A stretch of 33,643 bases of DNA. It comes from a virus. A program made the translations under genes and the position numbers. The stretch's first letter is position 1. Each line of letters begins with the position of its first letter. The notes under the pieces were generated by a model that was not told the origin of the DNA, made no database searches, and was given only the letters and a program-made list of their open reading frames with translations. Where the stretch lies: the IMG/VR virus record IMGVR_UViG_3300025894_000032, positions 1 through 33,643 of that record; one strand, given 5' to 3'. This document shows, in pieces, positions 5,122-33,628 of this stretch.

Positions 5122-5334
5122 TCAACTACATTCACATGAGCCAGTATTGCAGCAATACTCATCTGGGTCATCAATCTCAATGACATTAACTATAGACACA
5201 TTCTCTCCAATCAATGATGTGTTACAATTCGCTTCGAATGCATCTCGAGCTGTTTGCTCGTTGTCTGAAGTGTAATATTTAGAATGTACAGTAATGTAAC
5301 CGTCTAGTTGGTATGATATTTTGTAGTGTTTCAT
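5122..5334 (-). CDS. Small unknown protein with Cys-rich tail
   Basis: Protein of 70 aa, KHYKISYQLDGYITVHSKYY followed by a helix (EQTARDAFEANCN) and a strand (VSIVNVIEID), so a small alpha/beta domain is likely. It ends in a short cysteine-rich tail (EYCCNTGSCECS) that could bind metal or be redox active. I do not recognise a family. It lies between the amidotransferase and the glycosyltransferase, 4 nt after the former and 1 nt before the latter, so it is part of the same operon. An antisense frame also exists, but the operon fit and the protein-like pattern favour this one. Confidence 0.7.
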   Translation of the reverse strand: MKHYKISYQLDGYITVHSKYYTSDNEQTARDAFEANCNTSLIGENVSIVNVIEIDDPDEYCCNTGSCECS

Positions 5335-5338
5335 GATG

Positions 5339-6013
5339 TTATATAAAGAATGGTGAGTTGTGATTGAATGTATTCACTTGATTTAAGCCGGTGTTTGTTA
5401 CACTATATACCACACCTTCATCTAAAAGTTGCGTCGCTATGTCATCAACTCTCATCGATGAATAAACTCCGGTGGAGACATCTCCAAATAATGTAGATCC
5501 AGATCGGATGATGTATGTATTTTTAGATTGTGAGTTGTGCAACCAACATGCGAAGGTACCTTGCAGCATCTCTGCAACATCCACGATGCATTGTATTTCA
5601 GATACAACAGTACCTGTGTATCTGTTCTTGCGATCGCATACGTCGAGTAGTTTGGGTATAACTGCACTGTCTACTGCGTCTAATTCTAACTCATGAGTGG
5701 TTGTCAATTCCTCGTGGTTCTCTAATACACCATTATGAGCCACTATCCAGTGTTTATATGAAAATGGATGTGTTGTGAGATTGTCATACTGTCTCTGAGA
5801 TCCAGTTGGTGCTTGAGTGTGACCATTGAAGTATGTATATGAGCTATGAATTAATTCCTGAGAATGATCTGGTCTGATACCAGGCCACTTAAGCACGACA
5901 CTAGAGCTATCACTTGTGTAAAGACACCCACCAGCGAAGGAACCACGTGAACAATTAGCAGCATATAGCTGCTCAAATACACTAAAATTAGACGATCCAA
6001 ATATACCACACAT
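5339..6013 (-). CDS. Stand-alone class II glutamine amidotransferase next to QueC
   Basis: Protein of 224 aa consisting only of an N-terminal-nucleophile glutaminase domain. Cys2 follows the initiator Met (MCGIFG), and the family motifs GHTQAPTG, WIVAHNGVLENHEEL (the HNG loop that binds glutamine) and DAVDSAVIPKLLD are present. Such domains release ammonia from glutamine for a partner. No synthetase domain is fused, so the partner must be another protein. The gene starts 3 nt after the stop of queC, so the pair is almost certainly co-expressed. In archaea and in phage 9g, a class II Gat domain is fused to QueC (Gat-QueC) and is linked to converting preQ0 to archaeosine. I infer that this is a split form. 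A capsule- or asparagine-synthetase-like role is less likely given the neighbour. Confidence 0.85.
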   Translation of the reverse strand: MCGIFGSSNFSVFEQLYAANCSRGSFAGGCLYTSDSSSVVLKWPGIRPDHSQELIHSSYTYFNGHTQAPTGSQRQYDNLTTHPFSYKHWIVAHNGVLENHEELTTTHELELDAVDSAVIPKLLDVCDRKNRYTGTVVSEIQCIVDVAEMLQGTFACWLHNSQSKNTYIIRSGSTLFGDVSTGVYSSMRVDDIATQLLDEGVVYSVTNTGLNQVNTFNHNSPFFI

Positions 6014-6016
6014 TAC

Positions 6017-6724
6017 TTATCTAACAGACATATTCGAATAACTCCAGGGTATATTCTTTCTAGAATATTGCACCGGATCAGGAATACCTGCGTCAATAAA
6101 ACCTTTGATTCTACTGCTGCATGCTGTACACTCTCCACATGCTTGATCCTTACCCTCATAACACGTCCATGTTTTGGTGAAGTCAACACCTAATTGATGT
6201 CCGGTGGATATTATATCAGCCTTGCTTTTGAGTATCAACGGAGCCTCTACCCTTACTACATTACGACGATTCAATCGATTGATATCATTGATCGCTTTGA
6301 GAAACTCTCCACTACCGTCCCAAAAACCAGCTTGACTGTCAACGAGAGCTGATCCATGGAAAACAGTTTCCGCGCCAATACTCTCAGCATATGCTGTGCA
6401 GATACTCAACATCATCATGTTTCTGTTGGGTACATAGTTTACTGTTTGAGGATCACCTAGCACGTCTTTAGTTTTCGCAACATCAATAGATTCATTGGTC
6501 AATGAGCTCGTGTTGGCAATCTCACGCATGAATTTGATATCTAACACTTTGTAAGATTTAGCCAGTTTATCAGCTTGATATCTTGCACATTCAAGCTCTT
6601 TTGACATGTGACGTTGACCATAATCGAAGCTAAGAGCATGTATTTCATAACCTTCAGCTGCAACCATATATGCAATGGTTGTTGAATCTAAACCTCCGCT
6701 GATAGGTAGTACACACTTTTTCAT
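6017..6724 (-). CDS. queC: QueC, 7-cyano-7-deazaguanine (preQ0) synthase
   Basis: Protein of 235 aa, full length for QueC, which uses ATP and ammonia to turn 7-carboxy-7-deazaguanine into preQ0. The PP-loop ATP-binding motif SGGLDST (9-15) is present, as are the conserved FDYGQRH (33-39), VPNRN (98-102) and the C-terminal zinc site with C188, C196, C199 and C202 (CxxxxxxxCGECxxC). All key residues look intact. It heads a transcript with the amidotransferase gene. QueD-like and QueE are encoded about 20 kb away on the plus strand. In phages these genes usually supply 7-deazaguanine for DNA modification rather than tRNA. Confidence 0.95.
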   Translation of the reverse strand: MKKCVLPISGGLDSTTIAYMVAAEGYEIHALSFDYGQRHMSKELECARYQADKLAKSYKVLDIKFMREIANTSSLTNESIDVAKTKDVLGDPQTVNYVPNRNMMMLSICTAYAESIGAETVFHGSALVDSQAGFWDGSGEFLKAINDINRLNRRNVVRVEAPLILKSKADIISTGHQLGVDFTKTWTCYEGKDQACGECTACSSRIKGFIDAGIPDPVQYSRKNIPWSYSNMSVR

Positions 6725-8458: not shown

Positions 8459-11026
8459 CTAAAGTTTAAGCAGATCAAATAAATCAGTCTGCAGCTGCAT
8501 GTTAGGTCGGCGCATTGGCCAGTTGACAGCTCCATAAAACCTCTCGATAACACTAAACACAATCTTCTCGAACATCTTCTCAACATCAACTGGAAAGTCA
8601 CTCAACAACTCTGGAGGCATATAATACTTGTATGCTAGTGTTGTTATGTTGTATTTGTTCGGTAGTTTAGTGTAGTAATATCTAACTTTATCACCACTGG
8701 ATATTTTCTCGTATGTGTTGCTCAGATTATATCTATCAAGCAACATGTTGTATGTATATGCTGCCTTGGTGTGGATTGGCATGTGTTTCACAAACTCAAA
8801 GTCATGACATTGATCAGCGTACTTCTCGTAATCTCTTATACCCATCACGAATGAGATGTCATCTATCGGTAGTGTCTTGAACATATCATACACACCTACA
8901 AATATGTCATTAGTCTGGTTGAAGTTCCGAGTCATGATCATGGTCTCTATTATATTTTTTACTGCCGGTTTGATTCCTGCAGGCATGGTGGTTCTTACAA
9001 CCTCAACTCCAGTATACTTGAATTTCTTACATGGTATATCTTCATCATCTAATACATGCAATACATATCTCTTCTTTGATAAGAATATACCAGAATCACA
9101 CATAACCTCTCTCTTGAATACAAATCTCGGATCATTACTATTCAGAGTATTCTTCGCCCACTTCTTGATCTCAACATTCAGATAATCTTCAATGTCTTTT
9201 GCAGCGTCTTTAGCCTCTTGTGTGATGATAGTACCTTTATGAAAATCATGACCTATATGTTTCATTACCTTATCAATGGTGATATAGCTCGAGTCAGTAT
9301 CATTATATATCACCGGGTTGTAGTCATCAAGGACATCACACTTCTCTCTTACATACCTCTGTAGTATCTTGTTTGATTGTTTGATGACAGCCTGTCCAGT
9401 TAGTGTTATACTTCTCGCTATATCTGGATCACCCAGTGGGGCGTATTTGTTTCCGAAGTAACCATACACTGTGTTGATCAAGATCTTCAATGTGAATTGC
9501 TTGATGTCTAGATGTTTTATTCTTGTCTGTAGATCATCATATTCATCTGAATCTGCAGATATTTCATTTAATCTCAACTTACATACACGAAGATCTTTCT
9601 TGATATCCACTCGAGATTGATATATACGATCCACAATCTCTGGCATGATTCCTTTGACCTTCTGAGAGAATAAAAACTTAGCTTTTGTGATCGCGATCTT
9701 CTCTTTCTGTACATACTCGAAGAACTTCGCGTGCTTCATGACGATCCGCCGACCGGATACATGATGTATCGTTATGTCTTCATCAGTCTGAGATATTATC
9801 TTACCCACCTTTGTCTCTGGACTCAAGTTGAGTGTGATCATCGTGTTAGGATATAGACTATTAGCGTCAAATGATATTATACCGTGTTGAAATCCTTTCT
9901 GTGGTGTTGATACATACGCTCCTTCGTATTGACCAGATTCATCTCTTCGAATGAAGGTAGGTAAAATTTTATTTTTCTCACGAGCGGCAATCACAGCAGC
10001 ACCAGTGATCACAGGTAACGTACCCATTGCAGATTCAAATGTTGTTAATCCAGTATACGCCAGCATTCGGAGAAGTTCTATGTATCTTAACTTCTCTTCC
10101 ATCCGGACTAGCAAGTTTACGTCCTGTACGTTGTACTCAACAAACGTCTGCCAGTCTTCGTCAGCTAGTTGAGATAGATTCATGTTACCATAATCTACTT
10201 TATTCTCCCCCAGCTCACGCTCAGCAACAGCATCCAACTTATAAGACTCTCTAAGACCAATACTGAACTTTTTATACACATCAAGATAATCGATACAAGA
10301 CACACCATCTATGAACCATCTCACAGCCTCACGACCGAATTGTGTACGGATAGTTCTCGGGTATATAGTACCTACTGGAGATAAACGATGACATGTATCC
10401 TCATCGAATAATCTCGCGATTCGGTTGATGATATAAGGTATATCAAAGAATTCACTATTCCAACCGGATAAGATATCTGGCGGATCTATCGATATCATAT
10501 GCAAGAATTTTTGCATCATTTCCTTCTCAGTAGAGCAGTGTGTATAATCACAGTTCTCGATATCTCTAGTGAGTGGCTTTGTACCCCACGTGGTGAATTT
10601 CTTGGTTATGGTATCATATATAGTGATCACGTTTATAGCGTCATTGGCCTTTTCTGGTACAGGGAACTCCCCAGGGCTGTATGTTTCTATATCGATAAAC
10701 CATGTCTTGAGCGGGTGTTGATTGAAGTCATCGTCTTTACATCTGCTCTGGTATAGATCTACTAAGAATTGTTGATCCCATCTTATGTTCTCAAACACAC
10801 GTGTAGTGGTCAAGTCCTTGAGATACCTGTATCTATGTGTCGGAGATTGGAACATTTTTTTCTTGAGACTGGTGTTGAATATAGACTCAACACCGGTGTC
10901 CTGTTTAGTCTCTAGATACAAGTATGGTGAATAACTCAGCTCTCTGGTTATGCGTCTACCATCATCATCCCATGTCAACAATATGACTTGATTCTGACTC
11001 TTGTCGTATACTATATTACGATACAT
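8459..11026 (-). CDS. 43: DNA polymerase gp43 (family B)
   Basis: Protein of 855 aa (T4 gp43 is 898 aa), the replicative polymerase with 3'-5' proofreading. Exonuclease motif I is FIDIETYSPGE (D112, E114), and WNSEFFDIPYI is exo II. Exo III is in the VEYNVQDVNLL segment. Polymerase motif A is FDANSLYPN, motif B includes KILINTVYGYFGNKY, and motif C is YNDTDSSY with the two catalytic Asp. All active-site residues are intact, with no intein or split. If the phage makes modified deazaguanine nucleotides, this enzyme would have to accept them; otherwise modification would be post-replicative. Confidence 0.96.
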   Translation of the reverse strand: MYRNIVYDKSQNQVILLTWDDDGRRITRELSYSPYLYLETKQDTGVESIFNTSLKKKMFQSPTHRYRYLKDLTTTRVFENIRWDQQFLVDLYQSRCKDDDFNQHPLKTWFIDIETYSPGEFPVPEKANDAINVITIYDTITKKFTTWGTKPLTRDIENCDYTHCSTEKEMMQKFLHMISIDPPDILSGWNSEFFDIPYIINRIARLFDEDTCHRLSPVGTIYPRTIRTQFGREAVRWFIDGVSCIDYLDVYKKFSIGLRESYKLDAVAERELGENKVDYGNMNLSQLADEDWQTFVEYNVQDVNLLVRMEEKLRYIELLRMLAYTGLTTFESAMGTLPVITGAAVIAAREKNKILPTFIRRDESGQYEGAYVSTPQKGFQHGIISFDANSLYPNTMITLNLSPETKVGKIISQTDEDITIHHVSGRRIVMKHAKFFEYVQKEKIAITKAKFLFSQKVKGIMPEIVDRIYQSRVDIKKDLRVCKLRLNEISADSDEYDDLQTRIKHLDIKQFTLKILINTVYGYFGNKYAPLGDPDIARSITLTGQAVIKQSNKILQRYVREKCDVLDDYNPVIYNDTDSSYITIDKVMKHIGHDFHKGTIITQEAKDAAKDIEDYLNVEIKKWAKNTLNSNDPRFVFKREVMCDSGIFLSKKRYVLHVLDDEDIPCKKFKYTGVEVVRTTMPAGIKPAVKNIIETMIMTRNFNQTNDIFVGVYDMFKTLPIDDISFVMGIRDYEKYADQCHDFEFVKHMPIHTKAAYTYNMLLDRYNLSNTYEKISSGDKVRYYYTKLPNKYNITTLAYKYYMPPELLSDFPVDVEKMFEKIVFSVIERFYGAVNWPMRRPNMQLQTDLFDLLKL

Positions 11027-26778: not shown

Positions 26779-27381
26779 ATGGCATTCAAAAGTACAAAAA
26801 TTATAGAACTAGGAAGTTGTGCATTCAGGCAACCGAAAGCAAATAGTCATTGCAAATATATTCACGGTTACAGACTCAAAGCCAAGTTCTGGTTTGAATC
26901 AGATGAGCTAGATGAGAACAACTGGGTTGTTGATTTTGGTGGTCTCAAAGAGCTCAAGAATTTACTGAAGAATCAATTCGATCATACCACATGCATATCA
27001 AGCGATGACCCGCATATTGAGCATTTCAAAAAGTTGAGTGAAATTGGTGTATGTGATTTAAGAATTATGGATGGTGTAGGTATTGAGAAGTTTGCTGAAT
27101 GGTGTCATGCAGCGGCTGATAATTTTGCGCAGATCATAACGAAGCTGAGATGTAGATGTTCACAAGTTGAAGTGTTCGAACACGAGAACAACTCCGCCAT
27201 ATTCGAGTCATCAATAACAACAAACACACCAGTCAAGCCGACAAAGAAGGTAGTTGAGAAGAAAATTGATAAGGTTGAGAATATAACACAACCACCATTC
27301 AAGCCAAAAAAGACTGCCATGCCACTGAGATCTAGAACTAGTAGTGGTATAGCGGATGACAGAGGTACATGGGGAATTTAA
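26779..27381 (+). CDS. queD: QueD-like 6-pyruvoyl-tetrahydropterin synthase family protein
   Basis: Protein of 200 aa. The family core is present: SHCKYIHGYRLKAKFWFE (23-40, the catalytic Cys25 and HG motif), ELDENNWVVDFGGLKELK (43-60) and QFDHT (66-70). QueD makes 6-carboxy-tetrahydropterin for preQ0 synthesis. Two of the usual zinc ligands are replaced: the AAH His is in an AFRQ context and HGH is HGY. This CFRQ...HGY pattern is what I recall for a phage branch of the family. A Lys/Pro-rich tail of about 50 residues follows the domain. It begins the operon with QueE under its own promoter. Confidence 0.85.
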   Translation: MAFKSTKIIELGSCAFRQPKANSHCKYIHGYRLKAKFWFESDELDENNWVVDFGGLKELKNLLKNQFDHTTCISSDDPHIEHFKKLSEIGVCDLRIMDGVGIEKFAEWCHAAADNFAQIITKLRCRCSQVEVFEHENNSAIFESSITTNTPVKPTKKVVEKKIDKVENITQPPFKPKKTAMPLRSRTSSGIADDRGTWGI

Positions 27382-27383
27382 TT

Positions 27384-27620
27384 ATGAAAGAAAAGTACAT
27401 AACAGGTATATTAGGCAAACATATTGGCATGCGAGATATCGCAATTGCTGATCTAGCGACATATCTTGATCATCCAGTAGGTGTGGGTGAACATGGTGAT
27501 ATCGGTCATGAGATCGAGAGAAAGATCAAAGAGATCAGTGATTGTGATGATATGGTGAATACGATCAACAAATACTTTGCAACTAGCAAAGAGAGTGAAT
27601 CTACTTCGGATGACAAATAA
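27384..27620 (+). CDS. Small unknown protein between QueD and QueE
   Basis: Protein of 78 aa: KEKYITGILGKHIGMRDIAI, then DLATYLDHPVGVGEHGDIGH (22-41) and a helix (EIERKIKEISDCDDMVNTIN). The His/Gly/Asp-rich middle may bind a metal, but no family is recognised. An in-frame ATG at 27369 lies inside queD; ATG 27384, two bases after the queD stop (TAATTATG), is preferred because the same stop-start spacing occurs at 30930-30933. It is sandwiched within the deazaguanine operon. Confidence 0.65.
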   Translation: MKEKYITGILGKHIGMRDIAIADLATYLDHPVGVGEHGDIGHEIERKIKEISDCDDMVNTINKYFATSKESESTSDDK

Positions 27621-28365
27621 TATAGACACTCTCAACATATCTGAGGACTTCTACTCAGTTCAAGGTGAAGGCAACACAAGCGGTGTACCAGCGTACTTTA
27701 TCAGGTTGAAAGCGTGTAATCTGATGTGTGGTGGACCTGATGGTAGTCTCATGAAGGAAGGTAAAGCTACTTGGTGGTGTGATACAGAGGCTGTGTGGAG
27801 AAAAGGTCTAGAGAAACCATTTCAATATCTTGTTGATCGATGGAACGAAGAGGGTATATTGCCATGGATCAAGGAAGGTAGAGTCAATCTGATATGGACT
27901 GGTGGAGAGCCCACTATTCCAAAAAATCAAAGAGCAATCTGTAGTTTTTTAGATTGGTTTTCCGCTGAATCAACTTACAATGAGATTGAGACTAATGGTA
28001 CCATTTTCATTGAAGATGATATGTTTGAGAAGTTGGATCAAATCAACTGTAGTGTCAAGCTCGCCAACAGTGGTATGAGCAAGGATAGAAGAATCAAACC
28101 AGATGCTATAAGACGTATCATGAGTCATCCTAACTACTGGTTCAAGTTCGTCATAAGCACAGAGGAGTGCGTGCAAGAGATAATGGAAGATTTTATCAAG
28201 CCATTCGATATACCAGCCAAAAAAGTGCTGATGATGCCAGGTCTAGATAAACAGATACATTATCACGAACGGACTAAGTTTTGTATGGAGATGGGCAAGA
28301 AGTATGGTTATACAGGTCTCACTCGATTGCACGTTAGTGCGTGGGATCAAACAACAGGTGTCTAA
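27610..28365 (+). CDS. queE: QueE, 7-carboxy-7-deazaguanine synthase (radical SAM)
   Basis: Protein of 251 aa, starting at ATG 27610 and overlapping the previous gene by 11 nt. QueE rearranges 6-carboxy-tetrahydropterin to 7-carboxy-7-deazaguanine using a [4Fe-4S] cluster and S-adenosylmethionine. SEDFYSVQGEGNTSGVPAYF (11-30) and WTGGEPTIPKNQ are typical. The cluster cysteines are C36, C40 and C57: Cx3C followed by 16 residues instead of the standard two, an insertion like that known in some QueE branches. The substrate comes from the QueD-like protein, and the product goes to QueC. Confidence 0.93.
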   Translation: MTNNIDTLNISEDFYSVQGEGNTSGVPAYFIRLKACNLMCGGPDGSLMKEGKATWWCDTEAVWRKGLEKPFQYLVDRWNEEGILPWIKEGRVNLIWTGGEPTIPKNQRAICSFLDWFSAESTYNEIETNGTIFIEDDMFEKLDQINCSVKLANSGMSKDRRIKPDAIRRIMSHPNYWFKFVISTEECVQEIMEDFIKPFDIPAKKVLMMPGLDKQIHYHERTKFCMEMGKKYGYTGLTRLHVSAWDQTTGV

Positions 28366-28834
28366 TACAAACTCATTATCATGGAGTGATGTAGATCAAT
28401 TGTGTCAGAAGATTGTTACCGACATTGAATCACAATCTGATAAAATAACCAACATCATAGCCGTTAGTAGAGGGGGTCTAATACCTGGTACCATACTCTC
28501 ACATATGTTGAATGTTGAACGTGTGTATTGCTTCGGCATGAAGTCGTATAGTGATGATTCACGTGTCAACTCGATACCCAGTATACATCAACCCTTAACT
28601 GACAATGTAATGTGGACATTGAGATCTAGCACCGGTAGCACGTTGATAGTGGATGATATATCGGACACAGGAGACACCTTCAGTTACATAAGAGATCAAG
28701 TGACTAGTGACATAGACAACACCAGGTTTGTATCCTTGTGTCTCAAACACAACTGCAAACTCACACCTCGGTACTTTGGCAAGGTGACTAAAAAGTGGAT
28801 TGTGTTTCCGTGGGAGCTAAATAATGATGTATGA
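28358..28834 (+). CDS. Gpt-like purine phosphoribosyltransferase
   Basis: Protein of 158 aa with a GTG start at 28358, overlapping queE by 8 nt; an upstream ATG at 28304 would extend it into queE. It matches E. coli Gpt (152 aa, xanthine/guanine phosphoribosyltransferase) along its length: LSWSDVDQLCQKIVTDIESQ like VTWDMLQIHARKLASRL, IIAVSRGGLIPGTILSHML (33-51), and the PRPP-binding loop TLIVDDISDTGDTF (95-108), plus a final WIVFPWE. The family joins a free purine base to PRPP. In this operon it may act on a 7-deazaguanine base or salvage guanine for nucleotide supply. Confidence 0.88.
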   Translation: MSNTNSLSWSDVDQLCQKIVTDIESQSDKITNIIAVSRGGLIPGTILSHMLNVERVYCFGMKSYSDDSRVNSIPSIHQPLTDNVMWTLRSSTGSTLIVDDISDTGDTFSYIRDQVTSDIDNTRFVSLCLKHNCKLTPRYFGKVTKKWIVFPWELNNDV

Positions 28835-33040: not shown

Positions 33041-33628
33041 ATGATAGTTAAAGACATAAACATGTATGATGGTAATCTGCTACACAACAGATTTGCTTAC
33101 AGCTTTTACAGGAACAGGGTGTTGCCAATTGGTAACATAATCGCATTTAGAGCTCCGATGAAGGTGGAGGTTGATGGTATGATAGACCAGGAGGATGTGA
33201 TTAAAAATGAATTTATTTATAGTGAGGATGCAATCAATTTTCTCTGGGAGATTCCAAACCTGAATGCATTTGGTGCCATTGCATATCAACGATTGTTCAA
33301 CACCGGACTGGCTAATATATTGCAAAAATACATCAACAAGCCGATTGAGGTGGATGGAGATGATTTGATAGTGCATGCTGAACACAATCAAGGTGGCATC
33401 ATACAACCTCATGGAAAGTGTAGTGTCAGCATCACGCATGTGAAGGATGACGCAGCTCTCGGACACACCGGCATCAATGTCAAAGCTGGTAAAGATGCCC
33501 CTACATTCGCATACTCCACCAATATGACTGATGAGAGTGTCGATGGATTCATGGCAGATGTGACTGAGATGTTTTACACCATGAATGATGATATTTTCGT
33601 CGCCACAACGAAGATCATCAGCAAATGA
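33041..33628 (+). CDS. Unknown protein, possibly DUF366-like
   Basis: Protein of 195 aa. YDGNLLHNRFAYSFYRNRVL (9-28), NIIAFRAPMKVEVDGMIDQE (32-51) and a later IEVDGDDLIV followed by CSVSITHVKDDAALGHTGIN resemble, by eye, the archaeal DUF366 family, which has a FRGPCxV...MVDxED segment and a later LSVSIAT...HxGIN segment. I am not certain of this match. No activity is assigned. It has its own early-type promoter and follows the glycan island; co-occurrence with Que genes is only suggestive. The stop overlaps a possible next ATG. Confidence 0.65.
   Translation: MIVKDINMYDGNLLHNRFAYSFYRNRVLPIGNIIAFRAPMKVEVDGMIDQEDVIKNEFIYSEDAINFLWEIPNLNAFGAIAYQRLFNTGLANILQKYINKPIEVDGDDLIVHAEHNQGGIIQPHGKCSVSITHVKDDAALGHTGINVKAGKDAPTFAYSTNMTDESVDGFMADVTEMFYTMNDDIFVATTKIISK

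Follow-up and report, generated by a model that had tools for sequence, protein, structure and literature searches.

Ordinary QueC takes free ammonia, and the canonical bacterial enzymes, such as those of E. coli and B. subtilis, occur without a glutaminase (GAT) partner and carry the substrate motif YPDC. The reference signature that we used for canonical QueC motifs includes YPDC, and the Y131A mutant is inactive (PMC13329287). A different arrangement is found in the Gat-QueC of Enterobacteria phage 9g, a single fused chain in which a class II glutaminase precedes QueC, with the motifs NxRAEPT and YPDN and with deoxyarchaeosine (dG+) as the product; when 9g Gat-QueC was combined with DpdA, dG+ reached as much as 18% of G in plasmid DNA (PMC6884629). 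A pair of separate genes, QueC followed by GAT, is also already known, in Vibrio phages KVP40 (KVP40.0124/0125), nt-1 and 6E35.1a, in Pseudomonas phage pf16 and in 2.275.O, and is not new in itself. QueC is annotated beside GAT in KVP40, nt-1, 6E35.1a, 2.275.O and many others, and the neighbours of GAT in pf16 were identified by similarity in this analysis. GAT is labelled in GenBank mostly as 'hypothetical protein' or else as 'nucleophile aminohydrolase', with a PF00310 note in KVP40. In KVP40, nt-1, 6E35.1a and pf16 the two genes lie between a 1-nt overlap and about 11 nt apart and are part of a 7-deazaguanine DNA-modification cluster.

The stretch analysed here, hereafter the window, is an IMG/VR sequence of 33,643 bases with a G+C content of 38.5%. 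It encodes a T4-like replication core (gp43, UvsX, DnaB and gp32), and its DNA polymerase is only about 30% identical to that of the closest isolates, so that there is no close cultured relative. The features relevant to 7-deazaguanine synthesis are listed in Table 1. QueC and GAT follow the order seen in KVP40, nt-1, 6E35.1a and pf16, and their junction reads AGA-TAA-GTA-ATG-TGT on the coding strand; therefore, the genes are 3 nt apart and lie in the same reading frame. This agrees with an earlier note on this DNA, which had placed GAT 3 nt after QueC and described the domains as separate and in reversed order relative to Gat-QueC; the window QueC carries no N-terminal Gat domain. QueD and QueE are located 20 kb from the pair, and no FolE, QueF or transglycosylase was found within the 33.6 kb fragment. 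When five window proteins were submitted to PADLOC, the sole match was to its QueC model.

Table 1. Features of the window with their positions, strands and supporting evidence
Feature	Position	Strand	Description and evidence
Glycosyltransferase-like gene, PF13712	4446..5186	-	Pfam E=5.9e-11
Small ORF between GAT and glycosyltransferase	5122..5334	-	70 aa; ORF list
GAT, free class II glutaminase	5339..6013	-	224 aa; Pfam GATase_6, phrog_12378, alignments, AF2 model and fold search
QueC	6017..6724	-	235 aa; substrate motif FWDG instead of YPDC; Pfam/NCBIfam and motif alignment to E. coli QueC
QueD	26779..27381	+	Pfam PTPS E=1.5e-17; phrog_2389 E=8.5e-36
QueE (radical SAM)	27577..28365	+	phrog_2076 E=1.3e-44
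Xanthine/guanine-type phosphoribosyltransferase, overlaps queE	28304..28834	+	Pfam E=3.3e-9; PRK09177 E=6e-20, under its curated cut-off
DUF366 protein	33041..33628	+	Pfam E=2.9e-23

The window QueC was assigned by its matches to Pfam QueC (E=1.5e-59) and to TIGR00364 (186 bits, cut-off 150). It shares with the canonical enzymes the SGGxDS loop (SGGLDS), VPxRN (VPNRN) and the Zn cysteines C(x)8CxxCxxC, which are present as CYEGKDQACGECTAC with a loop one residue shorter. The position of YxQxHxxE reads YGQRHMSKE, where Y, Q and H are retained and the Glu is displaced by one residue. The earlier description of this QueC as intact thus holds for the PP-loop and the Zn cysteines, but not for the substrate motif, which is replaced as shown in Table 1.

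The second protein matched Pfam GATase_6 (E=1.4e-6), starts with MCGIFG (Cys2) and contains RG23-24, HTQAPT65-70, HNG93-95 and D115. An AlphaFold2 model built with 35 homologues had a mean pLDDT of 91 and a pTM of 0.89, and its best PDB match in a fold search was the GlmS glutaminase domain (TM 0.76 to 1xff), consistent with the earlier proposal of a free 224-aa protein consisting only of a glutaminase domain with Cys2 and HNG. Of the class II site, C2, N94-G95 and D115 are invariant in 36 aligned homologues and H93 is conserved in at least 90%, and Cys2, Arg-Gly, HNG and Asp are retained throughout the GATs. The fold and the Ntn catalytic residues are thus the same as in GlmS and PurF, whose glutaminase domain is, however, part of a larger enzyme and has Arg73 in the glutamine site, whereas this carboxylate-binding residue (R73 of GlmS) is Gln67 in the window GAT. 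Among the GATs readable at this position, 138 of 151 have Gln, including the window, T4-like and KVP40-like lineages, and 13 of 151 have Arg, which is kept in the fusions and in an L005-type lineage. Because the binding-site Arg is replaced by Gln in so many of them, the use of glutamine by GAT is uncertain. Two observations concern the reading of the gene. In one subclade GAT apparently starts with ATT (position 10001 of locus L044 and 34 other GAT genes); in L044 this ATT lies nine bases past an AGGAGGT ribosome site, and starting there leaves Cys at position 2. In L004 (7531-8201), the frame of a GAT copy that is 94% identical is broken by a 1-nt length difference, due to sequencing error or decay.

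Relatives of GAT were found in at least 249 IMG/VR stretches and, by tblastn with the KVP40 gene, in 51 phage records. When gene order was determined in the best 80 of these at least 249 stretches plus references, QueC was upstream of GAT on the same strand in all 83 loci having both genes, with 42 adjacent and 41 split pairs; this pairing is far beyond chance. The genes intervening in split loci are mostly on the opposite strand, and such an insert is present in about half of the T4-like loci. In T4-like relatives the genes run gp43, UvsX, QueC, GAT, glycosyltransferase and DnaB, the PF13712 glycosyltransferase being the next conserved gene past GAT, directly in nearly all of them; overall, this gene was seen in 89 loci, mostly immediately after GAT. 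It may place a sugar on the base or may have another target. The pairs of KVP40, nt-1, 6E35.1a and pf16 share with the window the Trp motif of QueC and the GAT family phrog_12378. However, their GATs are only about 25-28% identical to that of the window, their transglycosylase is DpdA2, and unlike in window-type relatives no glycosyltransferase or DUF366 gene adjoins the pair. In phage contigs binned with MAGs, GAT occurs within FolE-QueD-DpdA2-QueF-QueC clusters, and in one of them (L140) it adjoins QueF and not QueC. As for DUF366, it is located inside the QueC-GAT-glycosyltransferase operon, after the glycosyltransferase, in the relatives L005-L013, and is also encoded by all four near-complete T4-like relatives described below.

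The residue of QueC at the Pro position of YPDC was then compared with the presence of GAT, using loci from two QueC-based scans and from GAT-based scans, in which some contigs are counted twice. In GAT-linked QueC this position was Trp in 149, Tyr in 6 and Phe in 1, one further row being too short to read. QueC genes followed by at least 4 kb of sequence without GAT had Pro in 61 cases (one of them a Gat-QueC fusion), Ala in 3, Lys in 1 and Trp in none, and the 12 Trp-type QueC genes without GAT were all on contigs ending within 1.6 kb. After clustering at 72%, which left 41 GAT-linked rows and 56 others (two of them fusions and another a truncated case with Trp), the split between aromatic residue and Pro was maintained in 41 GAT-linked and about 53 GAT-less non-redundant QueC sequences. 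The association of the aromatic motif with GAT is strong. In the QueC tree, all GAT-linked QueC form a single clade (100/97), indicating that the link between Trp and GAT is essentially one ancient event. This clade groups with the E. coli-type, ammonia-using QueC (96/88), the canonical group closest to the window QueC, and the Gat-QueC fusions of 9g, Microbacterium phage Nicole72 and Erwinia phage Ep032 are placed elsewhere.

The earlier note had regarded the pair as a split Gat-QueC. Both the QueC and the GAT trees included Gat-QueC sequences from phages only. In the GAT tree, the free GATs form one clade (97/92) and the fused Gat lies on the opposite side with GlmS, PurF and AsnB, with several long branches. 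Although both systems combine a class II glutaminase with QueC on 7-deazaguanine, neither protein of the window is sister to the fusions, 9g Gat-QueC being on a different branch in both trees, and the active-site motifs differ, as Gat-QueC (9g, Nicole72) retains YPDN and the glutamine-site Arg, in contrast to FWDG and Gln in the window pair. By the standard of the earlier note, a GAT grouping with asparagine-synthetase-like sugar enzymes and not with Gat-QueC would speak against its proposal; the GAT does group away from Gat-QueC, which counts against a split Gat-QueC, although it groups with no sugar enzyme either.

The pathway outside the window was deduced from four relatives of 157-209 kb, judged near-complete by size and gene content only. 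All four encode QueC, GAT, QueD, QueE, QueF (Pfam-confirmed in one), the glycosyltransferase and DUF366; most large relatives have QueF. DpdA and FolE, which the earlier note had suggested looking for and which were not found in the fragment, are represented by a DpdA-type gene in four of four and by FolE in three of four. The former was located by inspection of the genes beside QueF, since neither the Pfam TGT (PF01702) and DpdA2 profiles, applied to the T4-like records, nor a DSGG/DSGA motif scan detected a transglycosylase; the PF01702 result was discounted because even the established DpdA proteins of 9g and nt-1 escaped this profile. The QueF-adjacent family, present in all four relatives, gave a model with a TGT fold (pLDDT 92), tRNA-guanine transglycosylases were 50 of 50 among the fold-search matches listed, and it shares 45% identity with the protein annotated as DpdA in Flavobacterium phage immuto and 44% with one from Campylobacter phage CP220. 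These similarities and the fold search indicate a DpdA-type transglycosylase, although profile comparison with DpdA2 and 9g DpdA gave nothing. We take this family to be the DpdA3 subfamily, which has reportedly been found in phages with near-total replacement of guanine.

An operon with the DpdA-type gene, an AAA_28 kinase and QueF was observed in 76 of 80 loci retrieved with this DpdA-type family, often with a formyltransferase. Phage immuto combines this downstream operon (DpdA, formyltransferase, kinase and QueF) with a YPDC-type QueC, and no GAT was found within the 41 kb read. GAT therefore goes with the type of QueC and not with the later base. The marine phages G032, G033, G035 and G037 (loci L318-L354) have a phrog_19058 transglycosylase with the motif LLDNSIFELG beside QueF, accompanied in the same operon by a PurN-like formyltransferase and an AAA_28 kinase, which suggests preQ1 or formylated preQ1 as their base. 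The phosphoribosyltransferase of the window has homologues in three of the four near-complete relatives, and immuto also has a phosphoribosyltransferase near queE; the window enzyme could handle the released guanine or a deazaguanine base.

DNA bases have been measured in two phages with the pair. In nt-1, there were 232 dPreQ0, 72 dADG and 44 dG+ per million nt, and the authors name ArcS as the source of dG+ (PMC6884629); we found no QueF in the nt-1 genome. In 6E35.1a, which carries QueF, 15% of dG is changed, with a mass that fits dPreQ1 (PMC12028318). This result indicates that the pair tracks preQ0 supply and that QueF decides the next step. Separately, the nt-1 GAT (NC_021529.2, 240098-240706), annotated as hypothetical, adjoins QueC and is not named in the available part of the paper measuring nt-1 dG+ (PMC6884629); the trace of dG+ could stem from this GAT instead of ArcS.

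Taken together, we consider it likely that QueC and GAT constitute a two-subunit, glutamine-dependent QueC making preQ0, and then preQ1, for DNA. GAT would hydrolyse glutamine by its N-terminal Cys and pass the ammonia to QueC, which would use ATP to convert 7-carboxy-7-deazaguanine, supplied by the QueD and QueE of the window, to preQ0. QueF would probably reduce preQ0 to preQ1, and the DpdA-type transglycosylase, like QueF encoded outside the fragment and present in relatives, would probably exchange preQ1 for guanine in phage DNA. We infer the physical complex of QueC and GAT, the transfer of ammonia and the base in the window phage. The earlier proposal, a functionally split Gat-QueC converting preQ0 to an amidine base so that the phage DNA may carry deoxyarchaeosine, has in its favor that the same two activities yield dG+ in 9g and that nt-1, where the pair occurs without QueF, contains some dG+ (PMC6884629), but dPreQ0 is about five times more abundant there and the dG+ is ascribed to ArcS in the same source. 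As 6E35.1a shows dPreQ1, most large relatives have QueF, and both the trees and the motifs separate the pair from the fusions, this proposal is unlikely and the archaeosine reading is not favored; what stands of it is the association of a free class II glutaminase with QueC in a 7-deazaguanine pathway and, probably, such a base in the DNA.

GAT might instead provide a different enzyme of the cluster, such as QueF, the glycosyltransferase or a sugar/nucleotide enzyme, with ammonia or an amino group, QueC being a neighbour by history only. The glycosyltransferase as next gene in T4-like and L005-type phages, the L140 GAT beside QueF and the structural match to GlmS are in line with this, but no glycosyltransferase was annotated or found beside GAT in KVP40, nt-1, 6E35.1a and 2.275.O, nt-1 is without QueF, and the presence of GAT goes with the QueC motif, making it still less likely. 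GAT might also have lost its glutaminase activity and serve QueC in a structural or regulatory role, or use a different amide, which would account for the loss of the glutamine-binding Arg in two of three lineages; considering that the catalytic residues are kept throughout and that the L005-type lineage retains the Arg in the same gene order, we regard this as very improbable. The two-subunit preQ0 synthase can be extended, tentatively and at somewhat below even chances, to a previously undescribed system of a large uncultured marine T4-like clade, in which a QueC with an aromatic residue in place of Pro docks or seals on a free glutaminase and in which the DpdA-type enzyme, QueF and the formyltransferase replace much of the guanine with a preQ1-type base.

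These results propose a function for a gene that is still annotated as hypothetical in many Vibrio phage records and correct the reading of QueC-GAT pairs as archaeosine synthases. They also provide a one-residue rule by which the sequence of QueC predicts a glutaminase partner in the phage. The pair marks a widespread group of uncultured marine phages in whose DNA modified guanine is probably abundant, a property that would influence restriction and perhaps virome sequencing.
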